Notes under the pieces: model-generated
The model's database searches: none
Seen by the model: only the letters and a program-made list of their open reading frames with translations
What the model was told of the DNA's origin: nothing
Source: an uncultured Roseobacter sp.
GTDB taxonomy: Bacteria; Pseudomonadota; Alphaproteobacteria; Rhodobacterales; Rhodobacteraceae
NCBI GenBank assembly: GCA_947501635.1
Contig: CANMWT010000001.1
Location: 124,001-188,000 of the forward strand
Direction of reading: 5' to 3'
DNA: 64,000 nucleotides
Part shown: piece by piece, positions 4,775-48,923 of the stretch
Layout: the number at the start of each line of letters is the position of its first letter
How positions within the stretch are numbered: position 1 is the stretch's first letter
Translations under genes and position numbers: made by a program

Positions 4775-4883
4775 TGGTTGCCTGCGGCATTGATGATCTG
4801 ACCCGCTGGACGAGTACACGGCGTCTGGGCAGGACAGCGGGCTAACCCCGTTTTCCTATCCCTTTAGTATCGAGAGGCGCCGC

Positions 4884-6047: not shown

Positions 6048-6055
6048 GATTTCAT

Positions 6056-6087
6056 GCCTCCGGCGGGGATATTTAGGGACCAAAGAA
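6056..6087 (+). repeat. Dispersed intergenic motif, copy 1
   Basis: The stretch contains a CCTCCGGCGGGG segment followed by GATATTTAGGGACCAAAGAA. The second half closely matches, on the opposite strand, the sequence at 18748-18770. It lies between the acyl-CoA dehydrogenase stop and the ligase start. I recall similar motifs as common between genes in Rhodobacterales; function is not established. Confidence 0.5.
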
Positions 6088-6096
6088 TGCGGTTAG

Positions 6097-8166: not shown

Positions 8167-8923
8167 CGAAGGTGCTGTACTTGAGGTTACACTGGACCGG
8201 CCCAAGGCCAATGCAATTGACTTGCAAACCTCGCGCCGGATGGGAGAGGTCTTTCGCGATTTTCGTGACACGCCAGAGTTGCGTGTCGCCATCATCACCG
8301 GCGCGGGTGACAAGTTCTTCTGCCCCGGGTGGGACTTGAAGGCGGCGGCGGATGGCGACGAGGTGGACGGAGACTACGGTGTCGGCGGGTTTGGCGGGCT
8401 GCAGGAACTGCGGGGCATGAACAAACCTGTTATCGCTGCGGTCAACGGGATTTGCTGTGGCGGCGGGCTGGAGCTTGCGTTGAGTGCGGATATGATCCTT
8501 GCCGCGGATCATGCAAGCTTTGCCCTGCCGGAGATCCGGTCGGGCACCATTGCCGATGCAGCCTCGGTCAAGCTGCCCAAGCGCATTCCCTACCACGTCG
8601 CGATGGAGCTTTTGCTGACGGGCCGTTGGTTCGATCCGCGAGAGGCGAAGGGGTGGGGGCTGATAAATGAAATCGTGCCACAGGCAGAGTTGATGGACCG
8701 CGCGTGGGCGCTTGCGCGGCTTCTGGCATCGGGCCCGCCGCTCGTCTATGCGGCAATCAAAGAAGTTGTGCGTGAAGCGGAGGATGCCAAGTTTCAGGAT
8801 GTGATGAATCGCATCACCAAACGCCAGCTTACGACGATAGACACGCTTTACAGTTCCGAAGATCAGTTGGAGGGTGCGCAGGCTTTCGCCGAAAAACGCG
8901 ACCCTGTCTGGAAGGGGCGCTAG
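8144..8923 (+). CDS. caiD: Enoyl-CoA hydratase, carnitinyl-CoA dehydratase (CaiD)-like
   Basis: 259-residue crotonase-fold protein. From memory of the E. coli CaiD sequence it shares LEVTLDRPKANAID, VAIITGAGDKFF, GWDLKAAA, KPVIAAVNG and the identical C-terminus FAEKRDPVWKGR, which makes a carnitinyl-CoA dehydratase-type function likely (crotonobetainyl-CoA + water to L-carnitinyl-CoA). Oxyanion-hole and acidic residues typical of crotonases are present in GGGLELALS and FALPEIRSG. ATG 8144 is supported by GGAGAG upstream; it overlaps the ligase gene by 23 bases, implying coupled translation. A general short-chain enoyl-CoA hydratase remains an alternative. Confidence 0.82.
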   Translation: MDPIKTRSEGAVLEVTLDRPKANAIDLQTSRRMGEVFRDFRDTPELRVAIITGAGDKFFCPGWDLKAAADGDEVDGDYGVGGFGGLQELRGMNKPVIAAVNGICCGGGLELALSADMILAADHASFALPEIRSGTIADAASVKLPKRIPYHVAMELLLTGRWFDPREAKGWGLINEIVPQAELMDRAWALARLLASGPPLVYAAIKEVVREAEDAKFQDVMNRITKRQLTTIDTLYSSEDQLEGAQAFAEKRDPVWKGR

Positions 8924-8991
8924 CAAGCGTTTGCCAAGGCCGTGCTGTGCGGGTTATCTGGGCCGGACCCAAGGAAAGACGCCGGAAGCAC

Positions 8992-10242
8992 ATGAAAATA
9001 CTTTTTGTTCACCAGAACATGCCCGGTCAGTACCGAGAGCTGCTGCAGTGGTTGCTGGCGCATCAAAATCATCAGATCGCATTTTTGACGCAGCGTAAGG
9101 CTCCACCCCGTTTTGAGGGTGTGCGCACGGTGATCTACAAGCCGCATCACGTGCCGGCCCAGAAAGCTTATGGTCTGTCCAAAGTCTGGGAGCAGGCGAC
9201 CGGCGCGGGTTTTGGCGCGGCGATGGCCGCTCGTGCGCTTGAGCAGGACCATGGCTTTAAACCTGACATTGTTGTGGGGCATGTGGGCTGGGGTGAGCTT
9301 ACGTTTTTCAAACAGGTCTGGCCGGATGTGCCGATCGTTGGGTTTTTCGAGTATTACTACAGGTTGCATGGGGGGATTGTTGGCTACGACCCGTCTGAAC
9401 CTGTCAGCGAGCACACGCCGTTTTTGCTTGAGGCCCGCAACGCTGTACCTCTGGCCAACATCGAGGTCGTCGATCAAGGCCAGTGTCCGACGCTGTGGCA
9501 GCGGGATCGCTTTCCGGCCAGTTTCCATGACCGGATGTATGTCTGTCATGACGGCATCCGGACCGACAGGCTGCTGCCCGACGCGAAGGCTTCGCTGAAG
9601 TTGTCGCGCCTTCCCGAGCCCGTGACGCGGGAAGATGAAATCGTCACCTATGTGGCGCGCAATCTTGAAACCACCCGAGGGTTTCATGTGTTGATGCGTG
9701 CGCTGCCGCGCATTCTGCGCGAAAGGCCAAAGGCGCGTATCGTCATCGTTGGGGGCAATGATGTGTCCTATGGCGGCAAAAGCAAACATCCCGGCGGGTT
9801 GCGCGCAAAAATGGAGGAGGAAGTAGGCGCTGAGATGGATTGGACCCGCATTCACTTTATCGGGCAGGTTCCCTATTCCGACTTTCAGAGCATTATTCGG
9901 ATAAGCCGGTGTCATATCTATCTGACCATGCCGTTTGTGCTGTCGTGGTCGATGATGGAAGCGATGTCGATGCAGGCGACCATTGTCGCGTCGGATGTGC
10001 TGCCCGTGCGCGAGATGATAACCCATGGCGAAACCGGTTTGCTGGTCGATTTCCACCAACCGGATGCGTTGGCCGCACAGGTGATTGATGTGTTGAGCGA
10101 TCCGCAAGCCTATGCGCATCTGGGTCCTGCGGCACGTGCTTTTGTAACAGACAAGCACGACTTTCTGACGTGCTGCCTTCCTGAACATCTGCGTCAGATC
10201 AATGCGTTGGTGCCTGCCGCAAAGCGGATGGACGTGCCGTAG
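8992..10242 (+). CDS. Glycosyltransferase, group 1 (GT4-like)
   Basis: 416-residue cytoplasmic glycosyltransferase beginning MKILFVHQNMPGQYREL, with a GT4-type C-terminal domain: ETTRGFHVLMRALP, KARIVIVGGND and the sugar-nucleotide-binding region around SMMEAMSMQATIVASDVLPV ending in GETGLLV. ATG 8992 is preferred to the upstream ATG at 8947 because it starts the Rossmann strand directly. It opens a plus-strand polysaccharide block and its TAG overlaps the GTG of the next gene by one base. It likely adds a sugar to a lipid-linked intermediate; donor and acceptor are unknown. Confidence 0.85.
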   Translation: MKILFVHQNMPGQYRELLQWLLAHQNHQIAFLTQRKAPPRFEGVRTVIYKPHHVPAQKAYGLSKVWEQATGAGFGAAMAARALEQDHGFKPDIVVGHVGWGELTFFKQVWPDVPIVGFFEYYYRLHGGIVGYDPSEPVSEHTPFLLEARNAVPLANIEVVDQGQCPTLWQRDRFPASFHDRMYVCHDGIRTDRLLPDAKASLKLSRLPEPVTREDEIVTYVARNLETTRGFHVLMRALPRILRERPKARIVIVGGNDVSYGGKSKHPGGLRAKMEEEVGAEMDWTRIHFIGQVPYSDFQSIIRISRCHIYLTMPFVLSWSMMEAMSMQATIVASDVLPVREMITHGETGLLVDFHQPDALAAQVIDVLSDPQAYAHLGPAARAFVTDKHDFLTCCLPEHLRQINALVPAAKRMDVP

Positions 10243-11093
10243 TGAGCACAGCGCCCATGTCCGTTGTCGTTTTGGGTGCAAATGGGCGCGTCGGCCGTTT
10301 ACTGCGCCCTGTCTGGCCCGAAGGCTGTGCGGCAGTCTGGCAGTCCCGGTCGTCACAAGCGGGATACAGCCGGTGCGATATTCTGGAAGAGCCTTATCTC
10401 CTTGAGCAATTGCTGCAGGGGGCCTCGGCGCTTTTGTGCCTTGCGGGCAGTGCACAGGCGCGCACCAAGGTGGCATTGCGCGACCACAGCCGCCTCGCGC
10501 AGGCCAGCATTGCGGCGGCTGCGCGGGCGGGCGTGACACGGGTTTTGCTAGCGTCCTCGGCGGCGGTCTACGGCAGGGCGCCGTCGTCCGTGTACGAAGA
10601 GACCGTTGGTCTTGATGTGTCAGAGTACGGGCTTGCAAAGCTTGAAATGGAAGAGGCAGCCCTTGCCCTGGGGCAGGCGCAAGGTGTCGAGGTGAGTTGT
10701 CTGCGCATCGGCAACGTTGCGGGAGCGGACGCCATACTGGGCGCCTGGCAACCCGGTTTCTCGCTTGACGTTTTTGACAATGGCACGACGCCCGAACGCA
10801 GCTATATCGGCCCCGAAAGCCTGGCAAAGGTGGTCGTGGCACTGGCTTGTGCGGAACGCGTCGATCCGGTTGTGAATGTGGCCGCCCCACGTGCGACCGC
10901 CATGGGTGATCTTCTGAATGCTGCTGAGTTACCGTGGCAGCCGCGCAGGGCCGGTCCAAATGCCATTGCATCCGTTAGCTTGGCGACAGGAAAGCTTGCA
11001 CGGTATTGCGCGCTGCCGGAACGCGCAGCAGACCCCGCAGTACTGGTGGCCGAATGGCGGCGTGCGTCCGAACCGGCGGGGCGTATCGCATGA
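10242..11093 (+). CDS. NAD-dependent epimerase/dehydratase family protein
   Basis: Extended SDR protein of 283 residues (278 if the ATG at 10257 is used). The nucleotide-binding motif GANGRVGRLL is at the N-terminus, LLASSAAVYG is the catalytic Ser/Thr strand and SEYGLAKLEME gives the YxxxK pair. Such enzymes epimerise, reduce or dehydrate nucleotide sugars. The GTG at 10242 overlaps the previous stop by one base and the next gene starts ATGA over its own stop, so three genes are translationally linked. The sugar nucleotide is unknown. Confidence 0.8.
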   Translation: MSTAPMSVVVLGANGRVGRLLRPVWPEGCAAVWQSRSSQAGYSRCDILEEPYLLEQLLQGASALLCLAGSAQARTKVALRDHSRLAQASIAAAARAGVTRVLLASSAAVYGRAPSSVYEETVGLDVSEYGLAKLEMEEAALALGQAQGVEVSCLRIGNVAGADAILGAWQPGFSLDVFDNGTTPERSYIGPESLAKVVVALACAERVDPVVNVAAPRATAMGDLLNAAELPWQPRRAGPNAIASVSLATGKLARYCALPERAADPAVLVAEWRRASEPAGRIA

Positions 11094-11725
11094 ACTGGCA
11101 GAAACGGCTGATGGATGTGTTCTTTACTTCTTTGCTTGTTGTGATCCTCGGACCGGTGATGATCTATCTGTGCGTCTACATTCTGTTCAAGCAGGGCCGC
11201 CCGATCTTTTATGCCTCCGAGCGGATGAAGACGCCCCAGCAGTCATTCAGGCTGTGGAAGTTCCGGACCATGACCGTCGTCGCGGACGACAAGGGTGTCA
11301 CCGGTGGACATAAAACGCAGCGCATTACGCCGACAGGGGCTTGGTTGCGGTCAAAGCGGTTGGATGAATTTCCACAGCTTTGGAACCTGCTGAAGGGAGA
11401 TCTGAGCTTTGTCGGCCCGCGCCCGCCTTTGCGCGAATATGTTGACCGCTATCCCGAACTTTATGCGCAGGTGTTGAAATCCCGACCCGGCGTGACCGGT
11501 CTGGCGACACTGAGATTCCACAGGCATGAGGAAAAACTGCTCTCGCGGTGCACAAATGATGACGAAGCCGATGCTATTTACACACAGGTTTGTATTCCCC
11601 GAAAAGGACGGCTTGATTTGATCTACCAAAAGCATCAAAGCATATGTTACGATTTTGATCTGGTTTTTGAGACGATTGGCAATCTCTTTCGTTCCAGGAA
11701 CCATCCAAAAAAACGTCGTAATTGA
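11090..11725 (+). CDS. Undecaprenyl-phosphate sugar phosphotransferase (bacterial sugar transferase)
   Basis: 211-residue member of the WcaJ/PglC/RfbP C-terminal domain family that loads the first sugar-1-phosphate onto undecaprenyl phosphate. It has one N-terminal membrane segment (about residues 8-32), then LWKFRTMTVV, RLDEFPQLWNLLKGDLSFVG and GPRPPLREYV, all hallmark motifs, including the RxxxDEFPQ region. It is a short PglC-like form without the extra N-terminal membrane domain. The ATG overlaps the preceding TGA. With the downstream CapD-type dehydratase the initiating sugar could be a 4,6-dideoxy amino sugar (inference). Confidence 0.9.
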   Translation: MNWQKRLMDVFFTSLLVVILGPVMIYLCVYILFKQGRPIFYASERMKTPQQSFRLWKFRTMTVVADDKGVTGGHKTQRITPTGAWLRSKRLDEFPQLWNLLKGDLSFVGPRPPLREYVDRYPELYAQVLKSRPGVTGLATLRFHRHEEKLLSRCTNDDEADAIYTQVCIPRKGRLDLIYQKHQSICYDFDLVFETIGNLFRSRNHPKKRRN

Positions 11726-11863
11726 CGTGCGTTGGCAGGCACCAGAATAGAAACGTGAAAACAGACGTCGAGCGTATAAGTGATAATTTAAGGCAGCGGT
11801 GTCATACCTGTGCCGTGTCGTTCCCGAGTGCTCTTGCCGCTCAAAAACCGGAAGAGCATCTTG

Positions 11864-13768
11864 ATGCGCATTCTTAGAAGTATCCTTAGCCTGACACAGT
11901 CGCAAAAGCGCCTGATTATACTTGGTTGCGATTGCCTGTTCGTCGTGGCTGCAGCGTTTTGTGCCTTGTCGCTTGTCGATATCTCTGCCGATCAGGCAGG
12001 CGGGCCGGTGTCTTATCTGATGGTGCTACCCTATGTCGTTGCGGTTGGCGCATTGGCCAGTTGGGCAGTCGGACTGAATGAAATGCGCATTCAACACACA
12101 GAAACGGGTGCCGCAGGCCCCACGGCTGTGGTTGCCGCGGTGCTGGTGCTGGCCTCTGCCGGGGTCTGTGCTTTGGTTGGGCTGTCTTATCCGGCGGGCC
12201 TGCACATCGTGCTTGGCATGGGGTATTTTCTGTTTTCCCTGATTGGCCGGATGGCCCTGTTTCAACTGCTTTTGCTTGCGTATCGCGCGTCGTCGAGCCG
12301 TACGCGTGTTCTGATTTATGGAGCCGGTAGTTCCGGCAAGCAGATCGCCCTCGCGTTGCGTCATCACGCGTCGCTGGAGCCGGTGGCTTTCGTGGACGAC
12401 AACGTCACGCTGCAAAACCTCAAGATCGCACGCTTGCCTGTACTCTCGCCGCTGCGCATTGAACAACTGGTGCACGACCTCAAGATTGAGCGCGTCGTCA
12501 TTGCAGCCCCGTCCATGGGGCAGGCCAAGCAGACACAATTGGTCAGAAAGCTCGACACCCTTGGCGTCGAGGTGCATTCGCTGCCGTCATTCGCGCAATT
12601 GATTGGTGAGATGCCACTGCTGGACAAGCTCAAGCCGGCGTCTGCCCGTGTTTTGCTGGGGCGCGACGAAGTGAACGAAAGCTGGCAACTGACGCGCAAC
12701 TGTTATCAGAACCGCACAATTCTGATCACCGGGGCCGGTGGCTCGATCGGTGCAGAACTGTGCCGTCAAGTCTTGCAACTGGCGCCGGAAAAACTGGTGT
12801 TGTTCGAGCTTAGCGAACTGGCGCTCTACACAGTTTTGCAAGAAATGGAAGCGCTGGCTGACGGGCTTGGCATTGAGGTGGTGGGCGTATTGGGCTCTGT
12901 CACCGAAGCGCGCCATGTGCGCCGTCTGATGCAGGACCACAGCATTGACGTTGTACTGCATGCCGCGGCTTACAAACATGTGCCACTGGTTGAGGACAAT
13001 CCACTGGCCGGGCTGGTCAACAACGTTCTGGGCACCCAGACGCTGGTGCAACAGTCCATTCAGGCGGGCGTGGAGCGTTTCATTCTGATTTCGTCAGACA
13101 AAGCGGTGCGGCCGACCAATGTCATGGGCGCGTCCAAGCGGCTGGCAGAATGCGTGGTCCATGACGCGACCTTTCAAGTGGCCGGACAGGGGACGCCTAT
13201 TTTCGCGGCGGTTCGCTTTGGCAATGTCCTTGGCTCTTCAGGGTCGGTTGTGCCTCTGTTTCAGGAGCAGGTCAGCCGTGGCGGGCCGATCACCGTCACG
13301 GATCCGCGCATGATGCGGTATTTCATGACGGTACAGGAAGCGGTGCGTCTGGTGCTGCGCAGCGGATCGATTGCCGAGGGTGGTGAAACCTTTGTTCTGG
13401 ATATGGGCAATCCGCTGTCGATCAAGCAACTGGCGCGGCAGGTTGTCGAAAACGCGGGATACACGGTGCGCGACGCGGCAAACCCCACGGGCGATATTGA
13501 AATTGCGATTACCGGCGCGCGTCCGGGCGAAAAGCTGGTCGAAGAGTTATCCCTGAGCAATGATTTGCGCGCGACAGATCACCCCAAAATTTTCGCCACG
13601 GAAGAAGAGACGCCAGACCCGCAGGAAACGGCGCAAGTGTTGCGCAAACTGCGCGAGGCGCTGGTCGCAAGCGATGAGGATATGGCGCGTCGGATCGCGA
13701 TGACATTCGTTGAAACGGCCGCCGGCGACACGCCCGATGGTCAGCCGGAACAGTCAAGGACCGCATAG
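11864..13768 (+). CDS. Polysaccharide biosynthesis nucleoside-diphosphate-sugar dehydratase (CapD/WbpM family)
   Basis: 634-residue membrane-anchored enzyme. The first about 150 residues hold roughly four hydrophobic segments, then a CoA-binding-like Rossmann domain (LIYGAGSSGKQIA), then the SDR catalytic domain with ITGAGGSIGAELCRQ, AAAYKHVPLVEDNP, SSDKAVRPTNVMGASKR and DPRMMRYFM. These match UDP-GlcNAc 4,6-dehydratases of the WbpM/PglF type, which make the keto sugar precursor of bacillosamine or FucNAc. GGAAGAG lies 7 bases before ATG 11864. It stands 138 bases after the sugar transferase and is probably part of the same module. Confidence 0.88.
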   Translation: MRILRSILSLTQSQKRLIILGCDCLFVVAAAFCALSLVDISADQAGGPVSYLMVLPYVVAVGALASWAVGLNEMRIQHTETGAAGPTAVVAAVLVLASAGVCALVGLSYPAGLHIVLGMGYFLFSLIGRMALFQLLLLAYRASSSRTRVLIYGAGSSGKQIALALRHHASLEPVAFVDDNVTLQNLKIARLPVLSPLRIEQLVHDLKIERVVIAAPSMGQAKQTQLVRKLDTLGVEVHSLPSFAQLIGEMPLLDKLKPASARVLLGRDEVNESWQLTRNCYQNRTILITGAGGSIGAELCRQVLQLAPEKLVLFELSELALYTVLQEMEALADGLGIEVVGVLGSVTEARHVRRLMQDHSIDVVLHAAAYKHVPLVEDNPLAGLVNNVLGTQTLVQQSIQAGVERFILISSDKAVRPTNVMGASKRLAECVVHDATFQVAGQGTPIFAAVRFGNVLGSSGSVVPLFQEQVSRGGPITVTDPRMMRYFMTVQEAVRLVLRSGSIAEGGETFVLDMGNPLSIKQLARQVVENAGYTVRDAANPTGDIEIAITGARPGEKLVEELSLSNDLRATDHPKIFATEEETPDPQETAQVLRKLREALVASDEDMARRIAMTFVETAAGDTPDGQPEQSRTA

Positions 13769-13818
13769 CCACCGGGTGCAGGCTTGCCGCTTGCGGACAA
13801 CTGAGGCAGATTGCAGCG

Positions 13819-14682
13819 ATGTCATCCAGCTCCCGCTCACTTCTTTCCTTTGGCCACGGTTACAGTGCAAGCGCTCTCGCGGCGCTGCTGGTGCCGCAGG
13901 GCTGGCGGGTGACCGGCACAACCCGCAGTCCTGAGAAGGCCGAACGCATCGCCAGAACAGGCGCGACCGCCGTGATCTGGCCGGGGGGCGATATCTCGGA
14001 ACATCTCGCGCAGGCTGATGCCTTACTGATCTCGGCGGCGCCGGGACCTGACGGAGACCCCGTACTGGCGCAATGCAAACAAGAGATTGCAACCCGCGCG
14101 GCGCAGTTTTCATGGGTGGGTTATCTGTCGACGACCGGTGTCTATGGGGATCATGCAGGCGGCTGGGTGGATGAGACAACCCCGCTTACCCCGAGTACGA
14201 AGCGTGGACAAGCGCGGGTGGCGGCCGAAGCTTCCTGGCAGGACATTCCGGGTCTTGCGCTGCATATCTTCCGGCTCGCCGGCATCTATGGTCCCGGGCG
14301 GGGTCCTTTCGCAAAGGTCCGCGCCGGCACGGCCCGTCGCATCATCAAACCCGGTCAGGTCTTTTCACGCATCCACGTAGAGGACATTGCACAGGTGCTC
14401 GACGCTTCTCTGCAGCGCCCGAGGCCGGGGGCGATATACAATCTGTGCGATGATGACCCCGCGCCACCTCAGGATGTGATCGGCTATGCGGCCGAGCTGT
14501 TAGGCCTGCCGTTACCCCCTGCAGAAGACTTTAAAACCGCCGATATGACGCAGATGGCCCGCAGCTTTTACGCCGAAAGCAAAAAAGTGCGAAACGATCT
14601 GATAAAGAAGGAACTGGGCGTAAAGCTGAAGTATCCCGACTATAAAACGGGTTTGCAGTCAATGCTGGACGATGGCGAATGA
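13819..14682 (+). CDS. SDR/NAD-dependent epimerase-like protein (YeeZ-like)
   Basis: 287-residue protein with an N-terminal nucleotide-binding strand LLSFGHGYSASALAALL, then VGYLSTTGVYGDHAGG (Ser/Thr and Tyr of the extended SDR class) and FRLAGIYGPGRGPF. This is the atypical SDR group represented by E. coli YeeZ, whose physiological substrate is not known. The next gene starts ATGA over its stop, so the two are coupled. Despite its closeness to the polysaccharide block, the spacing and coupling put it with the cyclodeaminase homologue. Confidence 0.75.
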   Translation: MSSSSRSLLSFGHGYSASALAALLVPQGWRVTGTTRSPEKAERIARTGATAVIWPGGDISEHLAQADALLISAAPGPDGDPVLAQCKQEIATRAAQFSWVGYLSTTGVYGDHAGGWVDETTPLTPSTKRGQARVAAEASWQDIPGLALHIFRLAGIYGPGRGPFAKVRAGTARRIIKPGQVFSRIHVEDIAQVLDASLQRPRPGAIYNLCDDDPAPPQDVIGYAAELLGLPLPPAEDFKTADMTQMARSFYAESKKVRNDLIKKELGVKLKYPDYKTGLQSMLDDGE

Positions 14683-23595: not shown

Positions 23596-23691
23596 CGGGA
23601 TGCTCCTTTGAGACAGGTGCTTAGCTGCGCGGGGCGTGCGCCTCAAGCCCTTATCGCTTGCCATTCCCACGCCAGCGTACTACGTCCGTAT

Positions 23692-23779
23692 GTACCTCGG
23701 GGGGCCTTTTAGGCTGAGATGCACCGTCTGTGCGGACCCGTAGAACCTGAACCGGTTAGAACCGGCGGAGGGAAGGTGA
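23692..23779 (+). ncRNA. TPP riboswitch (thi-box)
   Basis: Upstream of thiB. The aptamer core is recognisable: CTCGGGGGGCC, then GGCTGAGATG, GACCCGTAGAACCTGA, then CCGGTTAGAACCGG and CGGAGGGAAG, matching the conserved THI element. The terminal P1 helix is formed by ACCT at 23694 and AGGT at 23774. About 50 bases separate it from the thiB start; no obvious U-tract terminator follows, so control is probably at translation initiation (inference). Confidence 0.95.
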
Positions 23780-23827
23780 GCGTATCATCCTCTTTCGCCG
23801 TTCGACGCATTTTGAAAGGGATTGAAC

Positions 23828-27538: not shown

Positions 27539-27544
27539 AAGCGC

Positions 27545-27681
27545 ATTCTCTTTCATCCGGACTGTAACCGTCGGCTCCGGCCTTGCACCGGATCTGCTGA
27601 CACCCCGAAACGGGGCCGCTCGCGGGCTCGCAGACGATGCCTGCATACCGCCGGTGGGGAATTCCGCCCCGCCCTGAGAAT
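27545..27681 (-). ncRNA. FMN riboswitch (RFN element)
   Basis: On the minus strand the conserved RFN blocks occur in order: AGGGCGGGGCGGAATTCCCC, ACCGGCGGTATG, GCCCGCGAGC, GTCAGCAGATCCGGTG, CCGGAGCCGACGGTTACAGT and CCGGATGAAAGAGAAT. The closing helix pairs ATTCTC (27681-27676) with GAGAAT (27550-27545). It lies about 80 bases upstream of ribH and would repress it when FMN is abundant. Confidence 0.96.
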
Positions 27682-27748
27682 AGCGGCAACTTGCCAAGTC
27701 AGGCAAAACCCTGCAAGACCGAAAGCGACACAAAGCAAGGGCAAAACG

Positions 27749-40029: not shown

Positions 40030-40989
40030 TCAGCTTTGATGGGGAACCATACAACACAGCATTTCAAACATCAGCGACACGCCCAGGAAGGCCGTACCAC
40101 CCGATGCATCAAAGGGCGGTGACACCTCGACAAGGTCAGCACCCGCGATATTGACGCCCTGCAACAGCCGCGCCACCAGCATGGCTTGAAACGAGTTCGG
40201 ACCCCCGACCTCGGGTGTGCCGGTTCCAGGCGCAAAGGCCGGGTCCACAAAATCGATGTCGTAAGAAATGTAAGTCGGCCGGCTGCCAACAATGTCCCGT
40301 GCTTCGGCCAGAACATCCTCGGGCCCGCGCGCTTGGAACTCTTCGATCGGGATCACCCGGATTCCAACTGCTTGGGCGAAGTCGCGGTCTTCTGTGTCGT
40401 AGGCGGAGCCGCGGATACCGATCTGTACAACCCGTTTTGGATCAAGCAGCCCTTCTTCAACCGCACGTCTGAAAGGCGTACCGTGGGTATATAGCGTGCC
40501 GCCGAAATAGGAATTGAAGAGATCCGTGTGACTGTCGAAGTGAATCATACCCAATGGATGCGCCTTGCCCAGAGACCGCAGCACCGGCAGCGAACATAGA
40601 TGATCGCCGCCCGCGGTCAGGGGAATTATGTCGGCTGCTACCAGCTTGTCGTAAAAGGCGGTAATCCGATCCATCGTGTCGGCGATATCTGCAGGGTTGG
40701 GCGGCACATCCCCCAAGTCTGCGCAATTCGCCGCTTCGAATGGGCGCACACCTGTGGCCCCGTTTTGCGCGCGTATCATTGTCGACATATCGCGCAATTG
40801 CCTTGGGCCGTGACGCGGGCCGGGCCGGTTGGTCGTTCCGCTATCCCACGGAATTCCGACAAGTCCGATGTCGACTTGTGCAAGGCGAGAATCTTCAAGG
40901 CTGACGTGCGGCAGCCGCATGAAGGTGGGCACACCCGCAAAACGCGGCAAGTCGAAACCCGATACAGGGTGAAAGAAGGGGTCGCTCAT
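40030..40989 (-). CDS. Ureohydrolase (agmatinase/guanidinobutyrase family)
   Basis: 319-residue binuclear-metal hydrolase that removes urea from a guanidino compound. Metal-ligand motifs are intact: GGDHLCSLP, HFDSHTDLF and SYDIDFVDPAFAPGTGTPEV. The N-terminal segment PRFAGVPTFMRLP resembles guanidinobutyrase/guanidinopropionase rather than classic arginase. ATG 40989 is the start. It is last of three minus-strand genes behind a 2OG-Fe(II) oxygenase and is divergent from an ABC importer of polyamine type, suggesting a guanidino or amidino substrate (inference). Agmatine or guanidine itself cannot be excluded. Confidence 0.85.
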   Translation of the reverse strand: MSDPFFHPVSGFDLPRFAGVPTFMRLPHVSLEDSRLAQVDIGLVGIPWDSGTTNRPGPRHGPRQLRDMSTMIRAQNGATGVRPFEAANCADLGDVPPNPADIADTMDRITAFYDKLVAADIIPLTAGGDHLCSLPVLRSLGKAHPLGMIHFDSHTDLFNSYFGGTLYTHGTPFRRAVEEGLLDPKRVVQIGIRGSAYDTEDRDFAQAVGIRVIPIEEFQARGPEDVLAEARDIVGSRPTYISYDIDFVDPAFAPGTGTPEVGGPNSFQAMLVARLLQGVNIAGADLVEVSPPFDASGGTAFLGVSLMFEMLCCMVPHQS

Positions 40990-41067
40990 AATCGGCTCCG
41001 ATGCAATAGGAATTGCGCGCAGTTTGCCTGACACCACAGGGACGATGCAAATGCTTTGCAACGTGCA

Positions 41068-41532
41068 TCAGGCGTTGAACGCGGCGCCATTGCTTACCCA
41101 CTCGGTGGCATAGTCTGGTGGCAGAAAGGGCGCAAGCCATGCGCCGAACGCCGTATTGAAAGCATCCAGGTTCTCAAGGCGCTGAGGGCCCTCGCACATC
41201 CACGTGACGATCTTTCCTGTGCCGCGAGTACCAATTTCGGGGAACAGATAAGCGCAGCCTGCATACGCATCCGTAGGGTCGCGGATGATCCAGGAGAAAG
41301 AACGCTTGGCGGTGAACTCGCGGTCATGCCAGCACAGGTCAATCAGATTGTCCGCGCGCGTGACATTCGCAGGCCATGCATCACCGAACAGCCCCGACAA
41401 CACCGGCTCTGACGCTTTGATCGCGGCAAAATCTTCATCGACTTCAGCTCCGGACAAGGGGGTAAGCGTGAAGGCACCCACCATTGCCCTGCGTGGCAGG
41501 GTCGTGTTTTGAAAGTCCGGATGTGGGACCAC
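41068..41532 (-). CDS. GNAT-like protein
   Basis: 154 residues with an N-acetyltransferase-like layout: SGAEVDEDFAAIKAS early, the strands KRSFSWIIRDPTDAYAGCAY and GTGKIVTWMCEG, then DAFNTAFGAWLAPFLPPDY. I do not see a clear acetyl-CoA-binding Q/RxxGxG/A loop, so enzymatic activity is doubtful. The start is GTG 41532, 6 bases after the oxygenase stop, or ATG 41487. Tight spacing places it in the oxygenase-ureohydrolase operon. Confidence 0.55.
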   Translation of the reverse strand: MVPHPDFQNTTLPRRAMVGAFTLTPLSGAEVDEDFAAIKASEPVLSGLFGDAWPANVTRADNLIDLCWHDREFTAKRSFSWIIRDPTDAYAGCAYLFPEIGTRGTGKIVTWMCEGPQRLENLDAFNTAFGAWLAPFLPPDYATEWVSNGAAFNA

Positions 41533-41537
41533 GTGCG

Positions 41538-42608
41538 TTAAATCTCTTTGGCTTCGCGTTTGAAAGGGTTTTCTTCCGGAACGTCGAATTCAAGCACCAT
41601 CTCACCTTTATCACGGGCCTCGGCCATATAGCGGAATGCATTGACGGACATGCGCATCAAGTGATCCCCAGCCTTCATGGGCGGGTATTTTTCAAGCGTT
41701 TCCGGTGTTCGGAACTTCTCCAGCGGCTGCACGATTGTATGGTAATCAAGCCCAAAGAACAGCGGCATTGAATAGCGCTCCTGTCCGATGTTTGTGACGC
41801 GATGCTGCGTCGATTTGAACTGCCCGCCCGACCATGTCTCGAAGATATCGCCGATGTTGACCACGAAACATCCTGGCAGGGGTGGCGCTTCGATCCAGAC
41901 ATCATCAGCGTTCATCACCTGCAGGCCGGCGCTGCCCGTGAGCAGAATGGTAAAGCATTCAAAGTCGGAATGCGCGGCGATGCCGACCAGTTCTTTTGTG
42001 GCGGGCATGTCGTTTTCGAGATAGCGCAGCAGCCTAAGTTGGGAGGTCGGGTAGGTAATATGCTGCGTCAGTTCTTCAGTATCCACGCCCAGTTCAAGCG
42101 CCAGCGCGTCAAGCAGTCGAAGGCCGAGGTTGAACGCAGCATCGTAGTATCCCGCAACGGTGTCTTTCCAGCCGGGGATGTCGGGCCAGATGTTGGGGCC
42201 TGTCATACGCCACTGCGCCAGATAATCGGGATGATCTGCGGGTGCCTCATAGGACATATCCCACGCCTCATTGAAATTGATGGATTTCGGAAAATCGGAA
42301 CCATTTTCCTCAAATGGCACATAGCCACGGTGGTGCGTCGTAAAGCCTGACCAATACTTCATTTTGAAGCTGCGGGGCTTTTCATGAAACGCCTTGGAGG
42401 CCGCAAAAAGATCGTCGATCTGATCTTGCGGGATGCCATGGTTGGTTATGTAGAAGAAGCCGGATGTGCGCGCGGCCTCGCCGAGCTTTTCAGCCACCTT
42501 CGCCTTGTCCTCCGGGTCACCGGTAAACAGACCGCCCAGATCGACGACAGGCAGATTCGCGTCTTCGATCGTTAATGCACGCTGGTCGGCAGAAATATTG
42601 GATCGCAT
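41538..42608 (-). CDS. 2-oxoglutarate/Fe(II)-dependent oxygenase, isopenicillin N synthase family
   Basis: 356 residues: N-terminal non-haem dioxygenase region (LPVVDLGGLFTGDPEDKAKV, SGFFYITNHGIP) and a C-terminal double-stranded beta helix. The iron facial triad is visible as HSDFE (His, Asp) and TQHRV (distal His), with RYSMPLFF supplying the 2OG-binding Arg-x-Ser. AGGGAC precedes ATG 42608. Members include plant-type hydroxylases, ethylene-forming enzyme and homoarginine hydroxylases. It is divergent from the ABC importer with 236 bases between starts and co-oriented with a ureohydrolase, so a hydroxylation of an imported guanidino or amine compound is an attractive guess. Confidence 0.85.
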   Translation of the reverse strand: MRSNISADQRALTIEDANLPVVDLGGLFTGDPEDKAKVAEKLGEAARTSGFFYITNHGIPQDQIDDLFAASKAFHEKPRSFKMKYWSGFTTHHRGYVPFEENGSDFPKSINFNEAWDMSYEAPADHPDYLAQWRMTGPNIWPDIPGWKDTVAGYYDAAFNLGLRLLDALALELGVDTEELTQHITYPTSQLRLLRYLENDMPATKELVGIAAHSDFECFTILLTGSAGLQVMNADDVWIEAPPLPGCFVVNIGDIFETWSGGQFKSTQHRVTNIGQERYSMPLFFGLDYHTIVQPLEKFRTPETLEKYPPMKAGDHLMRMSVNAFRYMAEARDKGEMVLEFDVPEENPFKREAKEI

Positions 42609-42844
42609 CTTCAGGTCCCTTTTGTTGGTGTCTGAAATCTGACTTGGAACGGGCCTGCAGGGATACATGAGACGACTATAAAATCTCACTCCGACCCCCT
42701 GAATGCGCAAAAAACAGTCAAATTTGCAGTTAATTGCCGAAAATCGGGCGCAAAGACTCACGCAGGCGTATCGATGCAGCGCAGCATTTCGGCGGGTACT
42801 GACCGGGCAGGTCACCTGAGAACGTTAAAATGTGGGAGATACGC

Positions 42845-43927
42845 ATGACCAAAATGAACCGACGCACCCTGTTGAAATCGGCCAGCGGAATTGCCGGTGT
42901 GGCAGCGGCATCCAGTGTGCTGGGCACGCCGCTGATCGCACAGACGCGCAGCCTCAAGATAGGCTCATACGGCGGATACTTCGAAAACAGCTTTAAGGAG
43001 TTCGTCTATCCCGCCTTTACCGAGGCAACGGGGATCACGGTGGAAAGCGTTACGCAACCGAACTCCACCGACTGGCTGGTATCGATGCAACAGGCGACCG
43101 CTGCCGGCAACGTACCGGCGGATCTGTCTCTGTATGCGCGCGACACACTTATCAAAGCGTCCCGTATCGGTGGCCTTCTTGCGCCGCTTGATCCCAAGAA
43201 GATGCCGGCCACGTCCAATCTTGACGGGTACTTTGTGTTCGAAGACACGACCGGTGCCATCGGCGTGGGGGCCATGTCGTGGTTCACCGCGATGGTCATC
43301 AACCCTGACGAGGTCGATGCACCCGAAAGCTGGGCGGAATTCTGGGACAGTTCAAAATTCGAGGCGAGCCTGGGTCTGTCCAAGAACTACAATTCGCACT
43401 TCCTTGATATTGTAGCGGCCACGTTCTTTGATGGCGAAGCCACTCTGCTCGAGAAGGATGGTGTTGTATCGGTGATTGAAAAAGCGGCCGAGATCAAACC
43501 GAACGTGGCGCTTTGGTGGTCAGCAGAAAGCCAGATGGAGCAGTCGATGAAAAACGGCGACATCATCGGCGGCCAGTACTACCTGGATGTGGCCAACCTG
43601 ATGGCGCTCGACGGCTTTGCGATCCAACCGGTCTTCCCGAAAGAGGGCAACCCGCAGGACTATGGGTCATGGTGTTTGTCCGCGATATCAGAAAAAGCGG
43701 ACGAAGCGGCAGAGTTCATCAACTTCTCATCTGATCCGGCAACACAGGCATTGATGTCACGCAAAATCGGAACTGCTCCGTTGGTCGACAAATCCAAGAC
43801 CGATCTTACCGATGATGAATTCGCGTTCGTTTCGGGCACGCCGTCGATCAAACCGGCATATGAAGCGTATCTGGACAACGAGACCTTCATCAAAGAGACT
43901 TGGGAAAAAATGCTCGCCGGAGCGTGA
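42845..43927 (+). CDS. ABC transporter, extracellular solute-binding protein (PotD-type)
   Basis: 360 residues with a twin-arginine signal MTKMNRRTLLKSASGIAG, followed by LKIGSYGGYFENSFKEFVYP, the usual start of spermidine/putrescine-type (family 1) binding proteins. GGGAG 7 bases upstream supports ATG 42845; the ATG at 42830 is less likely. First of a four-gene importer. The ligand cannot be read from sequence; polyamine-, guanidine- or betaine-like compounds are typical of this subfamily. Confidence 0.88.
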   Translation: MTKMNRRTLLKSASGIAGVAAASSVLGTPLIAQTRSLKIGSYGGYFENSFKEFVYPAFTEATGITVESVTQPNSTDWLVSMQQATAAGNVPADLSLYARDTLIKASRIGGLLAPLDPKKMPATSNLDGYFVFEDTTGAIGVGAMSWFTAMVINPDEVDAPESWAEFWDSSKFEASLGLSKNYNSHFLDIVAATFFDGEATLLEKDGVVSVIEKAAEIKPNVALWWSAESQMEQSMKNGDIIGGQYYLDVANLMALDGFAIQPVFPKEGNPQDYGSWCLSAISEKADEAAEFINFSSDPATQALMSRKIGTAPLVDKSKTDLTDDEFAFVSGTPSIKPAYEAYLDNETFIKETWEKMLAGA

Positions 43928-43930
43928 GAC

Positions 43931-44994
<1,064 letters not shown>

Positions 44995-44998
<4 letters not shown>

Positions 44999-45969
44999 CG
45001 CTTGTCAGTGACACGCAAGCCGCGGTAGTGCACCCAAAACCACAGAGCGCACGGTTCACCGTCAGCGTACCTGCGGTGGTTCTCTGGACCGTGATCTTGT
45101 TTCTGTGTCTGACGCCGTTCCTATTGGTACTTGCTATTTCCTTCGGCCAGAAGATCGAGGGAGCCAGTTGGGAATGGGCCTTCACTTTCGCCAACTACGA
45201 GCGTGTCTTCGTCGGGGCCAACTGGCCCGAGGAGTTCACGGCACTCTACCTGCAGCGGCTCTACTATTCGCTGTTTTATGCTGTCATCGCGGCGCTCCTC
45301 GCAATTCTGACTGCCTTTCCGTTTACCTATCTGATGACGCGTCTGTCGCGACGTGCGCAAAGCGCGTGGCTGGTTTTTATCCTCTCCAGCTTGTCGCTGT
45401 CAGAGGTGTTCATCGTCATGGGGTGGGATGTTTTGCTGTCCAACCGGTCGGGCCTGCCTATGGTTTTCAAGGAAACGGGCCTGACGGACTGGCTCAAGGC
45501 AAACGGCTATTTTGAAACGATGCGCGAATGGGGGCTTGCCAACCCGCGCAACGTAAAATTCAAAACGTCGGTTTTTGCTACAGTGCTGACCATGGCTTAT
45601 CTCGTCTGGCCGTATGCGGTGATCCTGTTGTATCCGCCTTTGTCCCGTCTTGACCGTAGTATGATCGAAGCTTCGCAAACAATGGGCGCAGGGCCATGGA
45701 CGGTGATGCGTACCGTAATCCTTCCTACAATGCGCCTGCCTCTGCTGGGCGCGACGCTGCTGCTGTTTGTGTTCCTGCTTGGGGTCTATGTCGCGGTGAC
45801 GGTCTTTGCCGAACCGGCAAAACAGACAATGGCCGTGTCCGTCTATGAGGCAGTGCGTGGCAATACGCTTAACGCGCCCTTCGGTTCTGCGCAGGCGGTG
45901 GTATTGTTGTGCACGGCCGCGATCTTTCTGGTCGCGGGTCAATGGATCAGCAGGAAATCAGCTCCATGA
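44995..45969 (+). CDS. ABC transporter permease (PotB-type)
   Basis: 324-residue inner-membrane permease with about six hydrophobic segments. The EAA loop ATPase contact is MIEASQTMGAGPWTVMRTVI followed by LPTMRLPLLG. The start ATG overlaps the ATPase stop (ATGA) and its own stop overlaps the second permease. Confidence 0.92.
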
Positions 45970-46769
45970 TACTACGCGTGATCTCCCACGTCTTCATGGC
46001 GCTTTCAGCTGTTATGCTCGCGTTGCCAATTGTCGTTGTCTCGGGCGCTGCGCTGAATTCCGGACGGTCGATGTTCTTCCCGCCAAGGGAACCGACGCTG
46101 GACCGTTTCTACGAATTCTTTGTCTCCGAACCGGTCTGGGTAAACGCGATGACCAACTCGATTATCGTAGCCTTCTGCAGCGCCGCATTGGCGGTGCTTC
46201 TGGCATGGCCGTTGGCTTACGGTCTTTGGGCGCGGGGCAGTCGCGCGTCAAAGTTTCTGGCAGGTCTGGGGTCCATGCCTTTTGCACTGCCGCCGATTGT
46301 TTTTGGCGTTGGTCTTGGTTTTTTGTGGAGTTTTACCGGAGTTCTCGGCTCGCTCTGGGCAGGTGTCGTGAGCCATGCCGCTCTATTTGTTGCGCTGCCC
46401 GTCGTCACCATTTCTATCGGTTTACAGTCGATTGACCGCGCGCATCTGGATGCGGCCGCCACGCTGGGCGCAACGCGCACCGTGGCCTTTCGCACCGTCA
46501 TTTTGCCGCAAACACTGCCCTATACCGTTTCGGGTTTTTTCTTTGCGCTTGTGCTGAGCTTCAATGAGTTTATCGTGATGTTCTTTGTCTCAGCCTCCTC
46601 ATATGCGACCGTGACGCTGCAAATCTTCAACTCATTGCGAAACGGCTACACACCGACGATGGCGGTTGCTGCAATCACCTTCATTACCGTTTCCATCGTC
46701 GTTTTTGCGGCGATTGCCCGTTGGGGAGACCTGCCCCGGCTAATGGGGGCGGAACCGGCCAAAAACTGA
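45966..46769 (+). CDS. ABC transporter permease (PotC-type)
   Basis: 267-residue permease with an EAA loop HLDAAATLGATRTVAFRTVI and LPQTLPYTVSG. ATG 45966 overlaps the preceding stop by 4 bases; the frame from 45909 would overlap further and is not needed. Completes the importer, 23 bases before the isochorismatase-like gene. Confidence 0.91.
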   Translation: MILRVISHVFMALSAVMLALPIVVVSGAALNSGRSMFFPPREPTLDRFYEFFVSEPVWVNAMTNSIIVAFCSAALAVLLAWPLAYGLWARGSRASKFLAGLGSMPFALPPIVFGVGLGFLWSFTGVLGSLWAGVVSHAALFVALPVVTISIGLQSIDRAHLDAAATLGATRTVAFRTVILPQTLPYTVSGFFFALVLSFNEFIVMFFVSASSYATVTLQIFNSLRNGYTPTMAVAAITFITVSIVVFAAIARWGDLPRLMGAEPAKN

Positions 46770-46792
46770 TCCACAGCAAGGGAGCTTACATC

Positions 46793-47410
46793 ATGCCACG
46801 CCAACCCACATTCGTAGGACAGACAGTTCTGATTGTCGTCGATATCCAAAAGGGTGCATTTCTGGACCGCTCGAACGCAGGCATTCCGACGATGCCTGAC
46901 TATTTTGACAATATGGCCCGTGCTCGGCGTGTTGTGGATGCAGCACATGACGCGGGCATTCCCGTGGTGTTCTTTCAGGAGATCCACCGCCGCGACATGA
47001 TCGACTACGGTCGAGAGCTGGACGGCTCCGAAGGTGTCCATTGTCTGGAGGGTGAACCCGGCACGCCGGTTGCCAGCGAGGAAATGGACATGCGGCCGAC
47101 CGACTACTTTATTCACAAGCGGCGTTACTCTTGTTTCTTCGGCACTGAACTCGAGATTTTGCTGAAAGGGCTCAAGGCCGAAACACTGATCCTGATCGGG
47201 GGGATGACGGACGTTTGTGTGCACTACACATTCGTGGATGGTCACCAGCATGACTACTACTGCCGTGTTGTGTCTGACAGTGTGGGCGGTACATCGGACG
47301 CGGCCCATCAGGCATCGCTGAACGCGATGGAGTATCTTCAGGAAGGGGCGGTTCAGACGACGGATGAAATCGTGGCAAAGTTGGCAGGTCTCAAGAGCGA
47401 GGCTGCTTGA
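46793..47410 (+). CDS. Isochorismatase-family cysteine hydrolase
   Basis: 205-residue hydrolase. The catalytic triad is visible: Asp in LIVVDIQKGAFLD, Lys in FIHKRRYSCFFGT and Cys in GGMTDVCVHYTFVDG. The family hydrolyses amide or ureido bonds (nicotinamidase, N-carbamoylsarcosine amidase, ureidoacrylate hydrolase RutB, biuret hydrolase). AGGGAG precedes the ATG. Being next to an importer and near a ureohydrolase, an amide or carbamoyl substrate is likely; the specific one is unknown. Confidence 0.88.
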   Translation: MPRQPTFVGQTVLIVVDIQKGAFLDRSNAGIPTMPDYFDNMARARRVVDAAHDAGIPVVFFQEIHRRDMIDYGRELDGSEGVHCLEGEPGTPVASEEMDMRPTDYFIHKRRYSCFFGTELEILLKGLKAETLILIGGMTDVCVHYTFVDGHQHDYYCRVVSDSVGGTSDAAHQASLNAMEYLQEGAVQTTDEIVAKLAGLKSEAA

Positions 47411-48141
47411 CGGATCTGGCGGATCTGCAAGGGCACTGGCGGCGGGCGTGGATCAAAGCGCCCGGTCACTACGATGAGCACACACATGTTCATTGGATGC
47501 AGTGCGGGCAGGCCTATGCAGATATCCGCATTCCAGCCGATCTGCCCGACCTAACAGGCGTACAGGCGCTGTCTGAACTTGATCCGGCTTTGCTTCTGGG
47601 GCTGATGTCCAGCGAAGGCTTTGCCGGCACGATTGCCGTGAAAGCGTCAGTCTGCACATGGGCGCGGCGGATCAACTGGCACGGAACCCCCACCGGAGTT
47701 GATGCAGGCTATATGTCTTTTGACGCAGATGGCGCGCTGGTCGAGGATGGCGTGCATGCAGAGTATCAGGAGCTTTGGCTGCGAGAGGATGACCCGCCCG
47801 TGCGCGCCGATGTGTTTCAGTCCGGTGATGCGGAAGGGGTCCTTTTGTCATCGCCATCGCGTTTCGTCCTGGCGTATGGCAAAATCGATGCCCCGGCATC
47901 CGCGCCTTTGACACAGGCATTGACCGAAGGGTATGTGCCAGAGGCGCTGAGCATGCATTTTGCATCGGTTTACGCACTTGGGCGCTGGGAAGGCACGGTG
48001 GGGATCGCAGAAAAATGCACCAATCCGCTTATGAACAGGGCGTCGATTCTTCATCTTGCGGATCAGAGCTTGGAGCTAAACCTCATGCACTTTGACGGGT
48101 CATGGCGCAGCACGCGCGCCACGACCACGCGGGCAAGCTAG
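47407..48141 (+). CDS. Unrecognised protein, 244 aa
   Basis: I do not recognise a family. The start is TTG 47407, overlapping the previous TGA (TTGA), so translation depends on the isochorismatase-like gene. It is acidic, has no signal peptide or membrane segment, and begins DLQGHWRRAWIKAPGHYDEH with THVHWMQCGQAYADIRIP after it, then WARRINWHGTP and YALGRWEGTVGI; the alternating strands suggest a beta-barrel of lipocalin-like type. The stop overlaps the convergent metallo-hydrolase by 4 bases. Its tight coupling suggests a role in the imported compound's catabolism. Confidence 0.8.
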   Translation: MTDLADLQGHWRRAWIKAPGHYDEHTHVHWMQCGQAYADIRIPADLPDLTGVQALSELDPALLLGLMSSEGFAGTIAVKASVCTWARRINWHGTPTGVDAGYMSFDADGALVEDGVHAEYQELWLREDDPPVRADVFQSGDAEGVLLSSPSRFVLAYGKIDAPASAPLTQALTEGYVPEALSMHFASVYALGRWEGTVGIAEKCTNPLMNRASILHLADQSLELNLMHFDGSWRSTRATTTRAS

Positions 48142-48923
48142 CGCGACTGCCAAAGCTCTAGGTAGTGATCGATGATCTGAGCAAGGCGTGCAGCGCCAAA
48201 TGCCGGATCATGTCCGCCGTGTACGATCTGAACAGGCAGGCTGCGGATGCGGGCGAGTGTCGCTTTATACGCGTCAATATCGGCATCAGGCCCCTCGTAA
48301 ATCAGCGGCCCGTCATAGACGGCATCGGCACCAAACAACGTGCCACTGGCCGCATGCCACAGCCCGATTTGTCCTGGTGAATGGCCGGGCAGGTGCAAAA
48401 CCTCGGCTTGCCAGTCTCCCAAGTCGACGTAGGCGCCGTCTTTTATGGTTTGCGTGGCCGGGGCGGGTGGTATGGCGTAGCTGTGCAGATCATATGCGTC
48501 GTAGGGCAACGCATCGACCAGATAAGGCCACAGCGGCGGATACCCCGCATCGGCGAAAAGTTGAACAAATCGCTGCGGGATGTCGGCACTGTCTAGCGAG
48601 TAGGGCGACGGCTTTGCCAGTTCAGCTGCTTCAATCGGGTGCACAAGGCGGTGCGAAAACTCATGCGCTGCGCCGATGTGGTCCACATGCGTATGCGTCG
48701 AAAAGCAAATGACAGGCTTGGTCGGATCGGGGCGCAAATGATCGACAATGGGCCGTAACGGCGCAATCCCCATGCCGCTATCGATCAACAGGTCCGCATC
48801 GCGGCCCAACACAAGGTGCATGTTCGCAGAAAAAATCGGGTGAACATGCGGTTCGGTTATGAGGTGCGTGCGGTCGTCAAGCTGCGTACTGTGATACCAC
48901 TGATCTGCTACGGGAAGTGTCAT
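48138..48923 (-). CDS. Metallo-beta-lactamase-fold hydrolase
   Basis: 261 residues with the metal motif STHTHVDHIGAAHEF (HxHxDH), HLPGHSPGQIGLWH and LFGADAVYDGPL giving further ligands, and a final His in VHGGHDPAF. Members hydrolyse esters, lactones, thioesters or nucleic acids. It is convergent with the unrecognised gene and its start is 95 bases from the next LysR stop. It may belong functionally to the importer block, but its strand puts it under other control. Confidence 0.85.
   Translation of the reverse strand: MTLPVADQWYHSTQLDDRTHLITEPHVHPIFSANMHLVLGRDADLLIDSGMGIAPLRPIVDHLRPDPTKPVICFSTHTHVDHIGAAHEFSHRLVHPIEAAELAKPSPYSLDSADIPQRFVQLFADAGYPPLWPYLVDALPYDAYDLHSYAIPPAPATQTIKDGAYVDLGDWQAEVLHLPGHSPGQIGLWHAASGTLFGADAVYDGPLIYEGPDADIDAYKATLARIRSLPVQIVHGGHDPAFGAARLAQIIDHYLELWQSR

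Follow-up and report, generated by a model that had tools for sequence, protein, structure and literature searches.

Described guanidine-releasing systems and the studied locus

Guanidine is sensed by four riboswitch classes (PMC12508155), but where it comes from in nature is still regarded as unsettled, and only few enzymes that produce it have been described (2025 review, PMC12186494). The closest described pathway, published in October 2025 for Vreelandella boliviensis, comprises an oxygenase assigned as the methylguanidine hydroxylase MgdH and a hypothetical protein assigned as the lyase MgdL, in which D49 and R51 are essential by mutation (PMC12508155). The ethylene-forming enzyme (EFE) and plant homoarginine-6-hydroxylases, isopenicillin N synthase-like oxygenases dependent on 2-oxoglutarate (2OG), also free guanidine from an N-alkylguanidine, and no partner lyase or importer is mentioned for them in the available text. 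Here we analyze a locus of two divergent operons in a 64,000-nt stretch of contig CANMWT010000001.1 from an uncultured Roseobacter sp. (below, the window), encoding the 2OG oxygenase OG2 and the protein UNK9, and consider it likely to constitute a guanidine-releasing pathway with its own importer, acting on an N-substituted guanidine. This prediction is based on homologies, gene order, riboswitch co-occurrence and residue conservation, from which the reactions, the substrate and the direction of transport are derived.

The leftward operon encodes OG2, a small GNAT-like protein and a ureohydrolase, the rightward one, the solute-binding protein, the ATPase and two permeases of an ATP-binding cassette (ABC) importer, an isochorismatase-fold hydrolase and UNK9 (244 aa); the shared intergenic stretch is 42609–42844. 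The genes named in an earlier note on this DNA are all found where it had placed them. Its reading of the locus, catabolism of a guanidino compound that is first imported and then hydroxylated, is also the best one here, and the conservation of gene order in other genomes, which it had suggested checking, is observed in 58 loci. On the contrary, release of urea as a conserved step is not upheld: a ureohydrolase at least 45% identical to that of the window is present in only 9 of the 58 loci, in two of them about 8 kb away. The ureohydrolase is not a core gene, and urea release therefore does not represent the conserved step. Free guanidine is the most likely outcome common to the loci, predicted to be formed by hydroxylation and the subsequent action of UNK9, left unrecognised in that note.

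The window set resembles MgdH/MgdL (PMC12508155) in combining a 2OG oxygenase with a homologous lyase carrying the catalytic D-x-R, and in its genomic association with guanidine degradation. It differs in that OG2 belongs to a separate clade with changed residues and resides in its own divergent operon without a riboswitch, and in that the set includes a PotABCD-like importer and isochorismatase-fold, metallo- and GNAT-like genes. Membership in an operon under a guanidine (Gd) riboswitch, a trait of MgdH, is not shared by OG2; guanidine-type importer genes (permease at least 50% identical) are located within 10 kb, on either side of the cluster, in 24 of the 58 loci. The two-step chemistry predicted here, that of MgdH/MgdL, is already known, and what differs is the oxygenase clade and the dedicated importer. 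The statement of the earlier note that no pathway with this gene set has been described holds for the gene set, no description of which was found in the open-licence literature (preprints not covered), but not for the two-enzyme chemistry, published in PMC12508155.

GdmH, known from an operon of Synechocystis, is encoded in the genome of the window behind a Gd-I riboswitch on another contig, and beside the cluster in 15 of the 58 loci; this enzyme consumes guanidine. The ureohydrolase of the window is closer to 3nip, GpuA (390 bits), than to 7esr (155 bits), which, together with 7oi1, we take to be the Ni-dependent guanidine hydrolase GdmH. GpuA is its nearest solved relative, and in the cluster this gene is a local addition only. 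The guanylurea hydrolase GuuH, also of guanidine metabolism, shares the isochorismatase-fold family with the respective window protein, which is 31% identical to the Pseudomonas mendocina MET protein.

Conservation of the gene set, UNK9 and OG2

The 58 loci were found by a scan with the oxygenase alignment, so OG2 is present in them by construction. They come mostly from Rhodobacterales, and also from Hyphomicrobiales and Gammaproteobacteria, with Roseibium, a Rhodobiaceae bin, Granulosicoccus and a Chromatiales bin among the recovered taxa; the oxygenases closest to that of the window (89% identity) are from Tritonibacter litoralis and Roseobacter sp. WL0113. The gene order is conserved far beyond chance (counts in Table 1). 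The core consists of OG2 divergent from the importer, the isochorismatase-fold hydrolase and UNK9, usually with a metallo-beta-lactamase-fold hydrolase; the conserved unit reaches past position 48141 to the latter gene. Some of the gene absences are due to contig ends (L043, L056, L061, L084), as are four of the five absences of UNK9, the fifth being L075, where the contig is long enough. With contig to spare, the isochorismatase-fold protein is absent from L063 and L074, which retain UNK9 and the permeases, and the metallo-hydrolase, from L039, L044, L075, L077, L081 and L083. Among frames of at least 100 aa matching no query gene, no family was present in more than 7 of the 58 loci. As for a regulatory motif shared by OG2 and the solute-binding protein, the search for exact 10-mers yielded none, the commonest one being present in 6 of 56 intergenic regions.

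UNK9, which has no Pfam match at E ≤ 0.001, is homologous to the N-(hydroxymethyl)guanidine lyase MgdL, and cleavage of an N-(hydroxyalkyl)guanidine is predicted for it; a likely function of this protein is new here. As the representative of the V. boliviensis system we used L114, where the gene order is as published (importer, UAAP1, UAAP2, Gd-II riboswitch, urea/guanidine carboxylase, oxygenase, lyase), and homology was measured against the L114 lyase, recovered in the UNK9 search at E 1.3e-9 (others, as low as 6e-23). D49 and R51 of the L114 lyase correspond to D39 and R41 of UNK9, which, together with R13, D23, V28, W30, Q32, W85, E113, E122 and W124, are invariant in all 22 aligned rows, and these residues also hold in 54 OG2-type rows (53 cluster copies and the window) and 10 outside Mgd-type rows. 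Besides the catalytic pair, MgdL binds guanidine through acidic and Trp residues, and residues of both kinds are among the invariant ones (D23, E113 and E122; W30, W85 and W124). In the phylum UNK9 has matches at E ≤ 0.01 in 16 of 398 genomes, its own included, several of them weak. From 11 of these 16 genomes we took 12 lyase contexts, eight of which contain an OG2 homologue (L107, L108, L109 and L114–L118, the L117 gene being split). All eight have a lyase-like match nearby, which is weak in L117 and L118 and reaches E ≤ 1e-4 in the other six, and all except L117 have at least one guanidine-type importer gene. Gd-I or Gd-II riboswitches are present in 8 of the 12 contexts (L110–L116 and L118), and none in L107, L108, L109 and L117. 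No UNK9 homologues were found on plasmids at E ≤ 0.001.

Moreover, the genomes with the cluster tend to have Gd-I riboswitches. Genomes of 50 of the 58 loci were submitted to the search and 49 searched, with a Gd-I match observed in 48, above the cut-off in 46. In the family at large, Gd-I is found in 44 of 248 genomes (40 above the cut-off), namely in 9 of 11 UNK9-positive genomes compared to 35 of the other 237 (Fisher p 3.5e-6, a guide only, as the genomes are related and the two 248-genome sets were taken as identical, their identifiers agreeing). The 11 UNK9-positive family genomes include that of the window, and of the 10 others, 8 carry the OG2–importer–UNK9 cluster, while L027 has a weak UNK9 match only. 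In the window's own genome the Gd-I riboswitch lies on another contig, just 5' of an importer and GdmH (553 bits to 7esr) located there, and GdmH is visible in 15 of the 24 loci with guanidine-type importer genes. The guanidine carboxylase route is present in L062, and in L047 a single gene of this route is seen where the locus ends.

OG2 has the jelly-roll fold of 2OG oxygenases (AlphaFold2 model, mean pLDDT 92.6) with the HxD...H metal triad and the 2OG-binding Arg in place. H213, D215, E217, H269 and R278 are invariant in OG2 and MgdH-like rows, and E101 and the HxDxE motif (E217) are common to both; in distant rows the last place of HxDxE is Gly (L124, L129, L130) or Glu (L122, L128). On the midpoint-rooted tree, with long branches flagged, OG2 forms its own clade (100/100), which together with the long plasmid row L122 is placed next to the MgdH-like rows (91/72); a 99/99 node unites all of these. 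Hence OG2, judged by this tree, is placed outside the MgdH-like clade, as a separate clade next to it. Between 59 OG2 rows and 8 MgdH-like rows, which represent 7 loci and do not include the split L117 gene, 39 positions differ clade-wise, including W86/Y, E100/G, N102/E, T136/L, S214/T and R319/A, the last being Arg in 58 of 59 OG2 rows and Ala in 8 of 8 MgdH-like rows. R319 is located on the C-terminal helix of the model. EFE, which is 22–24% identical to OG2, has been reported to bind L-arginine with Arg316 (PMC12329707); that R319 falls within a few residues of Arg316, in an alignment good at the level of ranges only, is suggestive, and a link between these two residues would be a guess.

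Two of the 49 cluster genomes also encode an oxygenase whose identity to the L114 MgdH exceeds 50% (54% and 62%); many of the 49 contain further oxygenase paralogues at 29–42%, which we did not count as MgdH. In Roseibium aggregatum (L131), MgdH belongs to a Gd-I guanidine operon without a lyase, and the sole lyase match is in the OG2 cluster. Conversely, in a Pelagimonas bin the sole lyase match is beside MgdH (L132), and the OG2 cluster (L075) has none. Exactly one lyase match (E ≤ 0.001) was found in each of 23 chosen genomes. This suggests that the products of OG2 and MgdH are handled by the same lyase, and retention of both oxygenases in one genome suggests that their substrates differ.

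Several related regions were also observed. Lyase-like genes without an OG2-type oxygenase in the surrounding 18 kb, with Gd-I present, are found in L110 (8869–9618), L111 (8898–9662), L112 (9106–9870) and L113 (8799–9563); L110–L112 also contain a gene similar to guanylurea hydrolase, 60–64% identical to the presumed GuuH-MET. In the same genome as the L114 MgdH operon, the L117 region (3621–13823) comprises the split OG2-like gene with the weak lyase-like match nearby, an importer of the Pot type and a ureohydrolase that shares 51% identity with that of the window, and may be a distant version of the window system. On a Paraburkholderia plasmid (L125, 2321–13002), an MgdH-like oxygenase, 57% identical to that of L114, is located near UAAP1/2, urea carboxylase and allophanate hydrolase, and 2.9 kb from a gene annotated as an ‘N-acyl homoserine lactonase family protein’. 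A beta-barrel fold is a feature of MgdL; the UNK9 AlphaFold2 model consists mostly of beta strands (mean pLDDT 96.5), and by Foldseek it has a sole match under 0.001, the yeast protein HRI1 (3rby, E 5.9e-5, TM 0.48). Of 22 UNK9-family members, 11 show some similarity to the Pfam model of HRI1, at E 2e-5 in the best case; the window protein scores 12.1 bits, the cut-off being 27. This indicates a possible remote relationship of the MgdL/UNK9 family to the uncharacterised HRI1. The best sequence match of UNK9 to a solved structure (E 0.39) was not credible.

Proposed pathway and alternatives

In the proposed pathway, the ABC importer would take in an N-substituted guanidine, OG2 would hydroxylate the carbon adjoining a guanidino nitrogen, yielding a hemiaminal, and UNK9, as an MgdL-family protein, would cleave the latter to free guanidine and an aldehyde. 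Guanidine would then be broken down by the separate Gd-I-linked operon with GdmH, or, in some relatives, by guanidine carboxylase. In the window organism the added GpuA-like ureohydrolase may release urea from the same kind of compound. As OG2 differs from MgdH at 39 clade-wise positions, its substrate is probably not plain methylguanidine; given these clade-wide differences, including R319 in place of a small residue, the probable substrate is an N-alkylguanidine of larger size, which may be a guanidino acid (guanidinoacetate or 3-guanidinopropionate, for example). A dedicated pathway that would import a guanidino acid or similar compound, for instance guanidinoacetate, taurocyamine, creatine or a guanylureido acid of algae, and convert it to guanidine and an aldehyde acid is a serious possibility, though one we would not yet call probable.

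A number of observations weigh against this pathway. No Gd riboswitch was found over the cluster when the whole window was searched with Rfam at gathering scores, and one of the 49 cluster genomes has no Gd-I match. L110–L113 have no oxygenase of the OG2 type in the 18 kb that contain the lyase-like gene, and the family genome L022 keeps the importer and UNK9 with no OG2 nearby. R319 is not unique to OG2, being also present in the distant L122, and is replaced by Gln in the OG2 row L050; neither is position 319 always Ala on the MgdH-like side, with Ser in L126 and L127 and Val in MgdH of L132. The guanidine scheme does not account for the isochorismatase-fold, metallo- and GNAT-like proteins. 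Finally, the lyase residues, alike in OG2-type and Mgd-type rows, fit N-(hydroxymethyl)guanidine as the OG2 product just as well as a different compound.

The latter agrees with an explanation in which the substrate is methylguanidine itself and OG2 is a rhodobacterial MgdH with another importer, yielding formaldehyde and guanidine. The lyase apparently common to OG2 and MgdH in two genomes also fits it, as does the metallo-hydrolase, a possible means of aldehyde disposal, found with OG2 in 48 of the 58 loci (at a looser identity limit than in Table 1) and with the MgdH-like gene in L107. Still, we consider it unlikely, given the clade-wise differences from MgdH-like proteins, the separate OG2 clade, and the redundancy that would follow in the two genomes that also keep MgdH. 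None of the papers listed in a literature search on methylguanidine in seawater mentions this compound. That OG2 hydroxylates arginine or homoarginine, as EFE or plant homoarginine-6-hydroxylases do, is hardly credible: according to PMC12508155 and PMC12329707, the products of the latter enzymes decay spontaneously, so that a dedicated lyase would not be needed, and the identity of OG2 to EFE is low.

Two other schemes involve a hydrolase. The isochorismatase-fold protein could open the pathway by cutting a guanylureido compound, with OG2 and the lyase finishing the guanidine-bearing fragment; red algae contain candidate compounds, the guanylurea-bearing acids gongrine and gigartinine (PMC13208526), and the isochorismatase-fold family includes a guanylurea hydrolase (PMC9800807). 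However, the low identity to the yardstick guanylurea hydrolase and the absence of this gene from L063 and L074 make such a scheme improbable. A scheme along the lines of the earlier note, with the ureohydrolase as the key step and urea as the main product, is in line with the position of the GpuA-type gene downstream in the OG2 operon and with related ureohydrolases near the cluster in L063, L046, L066, L067, L069, L071 and L078, but in 49 of the 58 loci (flanks up to 10 kb) there is no such gene at 45% identity, and we find it very improbable.

The guanidine-releasing pathway preferred here may account for some of the natural guanidine that is sensed and consumed by many bacteria. If true, the dedicated pathway for a guanidino acid or similar compound would add a source, hitherto unreported, of free guanidine as the signal for Gd-I riboswitches. 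The gene set of the 58 loci predicts a specific guanidine-producing route, names two enzymes for it and ties it to Gd-I in 48 of 49 genomes.

Importer, accessory genes and coordinates

The importer, called PotABCD-type in the earlier note, is an ABC importer whose solute-binding protein belongs to the PotD-like superfamily, but scores only 29.6 bits with the PotD model, the cut-off of which is 582, and we retain the label PotABCD-like only. Among solved chains, this protein weakly matches those of mannopine-binding, GABA-sensor and PotD proteins. The GNAT-like label stands only in part: weak matches to Acetyltransf_3 (best E 0.005) are seen in 5 of 13 relatives, but the window protein itself has none.

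The ureohydrolase is, by sequence, of the 3-guanidinopropionase (GpuA) type; after 3nip its next match is 3nio (318 bits). By manual count, it has Tyr at the place of GpuA Y157, where GbuA has Met161; these residues presumably set the substrate specificity. Its relatives are 77% identical in L063 and 46–49% in 8 more of the 58 loci. The motif of the window is shared by L063, and L046, L066, L067, L069 and L071 have another motif; in L035 and L037 the enzyme is of the GbuA-like subtype, about 8 kb from the oxygenase, and in L078 a related ureohydrolase is near the cluster.

The isochorismatase-fold protein was considered as a guanylurea hydrolase GuuH and rejected, being only 31% identical to the yardstick, the presumed P. 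mendocina MET enzyme (L121:20653–21288, identified via the description of pMET-2 in the paper); it is 58% identical to two proteins of roseobacter plasmids. One of its 58% relatives is on a Roseovarius plasmid (L120, 3757–11193), in a run of genes that also holds an ABC importer, two ornithine cyclodeaminases, SugE and RidA. The metallo-hydrolase has a 41% identical relative beside the MgdH-like gene in L107, and clean-up of an aldehyde or a thioester would be a guess at its role.

Table 1. Features of the locus, with the number of loci (of 58) in which each gene accompanies OG2
Feature	Coordinates	Strand	Loci	Basis and comments
GpuA-type ureohydrolase, local addition	40030..40989	-	9 (at least 45% identity)	Pfam Arginase (frame 40030-41061); solved-structure matches
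Small GNAT-like protein (154 aa)	41068..41532	-	35	5 bp downstream of OG2
2OG-Fe(II) oxygenase OG2	41538..42608	-	58 (by construction)	Pfam DIOX_N + 2OG-FeII_Oxy; reading frame 41538-42815
ABC importer solute-binding protein, PotD-like superfamily	42845..43927	+	58	Pfam SBP_bac_8
ABC importer ATPase	43931..44998	+	58	ABC_tran + TOBE_2
ABC importer permease 1	44995..45969	+	57	BPD_transp_1
ABC importer permease 2	45909..46769	+	56	BPD_transp_1
Isochorismatase-fold (cysteine) hydrolase, accessory	46793..47410	+	54	Pfam Isochorismatase (frame 46721-47410)
MgdL-family lyase UNK9, predicted splitter of N-(hydroxyalkyl)guanidine	47407..48141	+	53	MgdL homology, invariant residues, neighbours
Metallo-beta-lactamase-fold hydrolase, probably accessory	48138..48923	-	46 (at least 45% identity)	Lactamase_B

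The importer frames together span 42830–46769 (+). Alignment with relatives points to 42608, 40989 and 46793 as the likelier starts of the oxygenase, the ureohydrolase and the isochorismatase-fold protein, respectively. Like UNK9, the 154-aa protein had no match in the Pfam search at E ≤ 0.001. Elsewhere in the window, ordinary flavin mononucleotide and thiamine pyrophosphate riboswitches (FMN and TPP) are located at 27541–27685 (–) and 23688–23790 (+), respectively.

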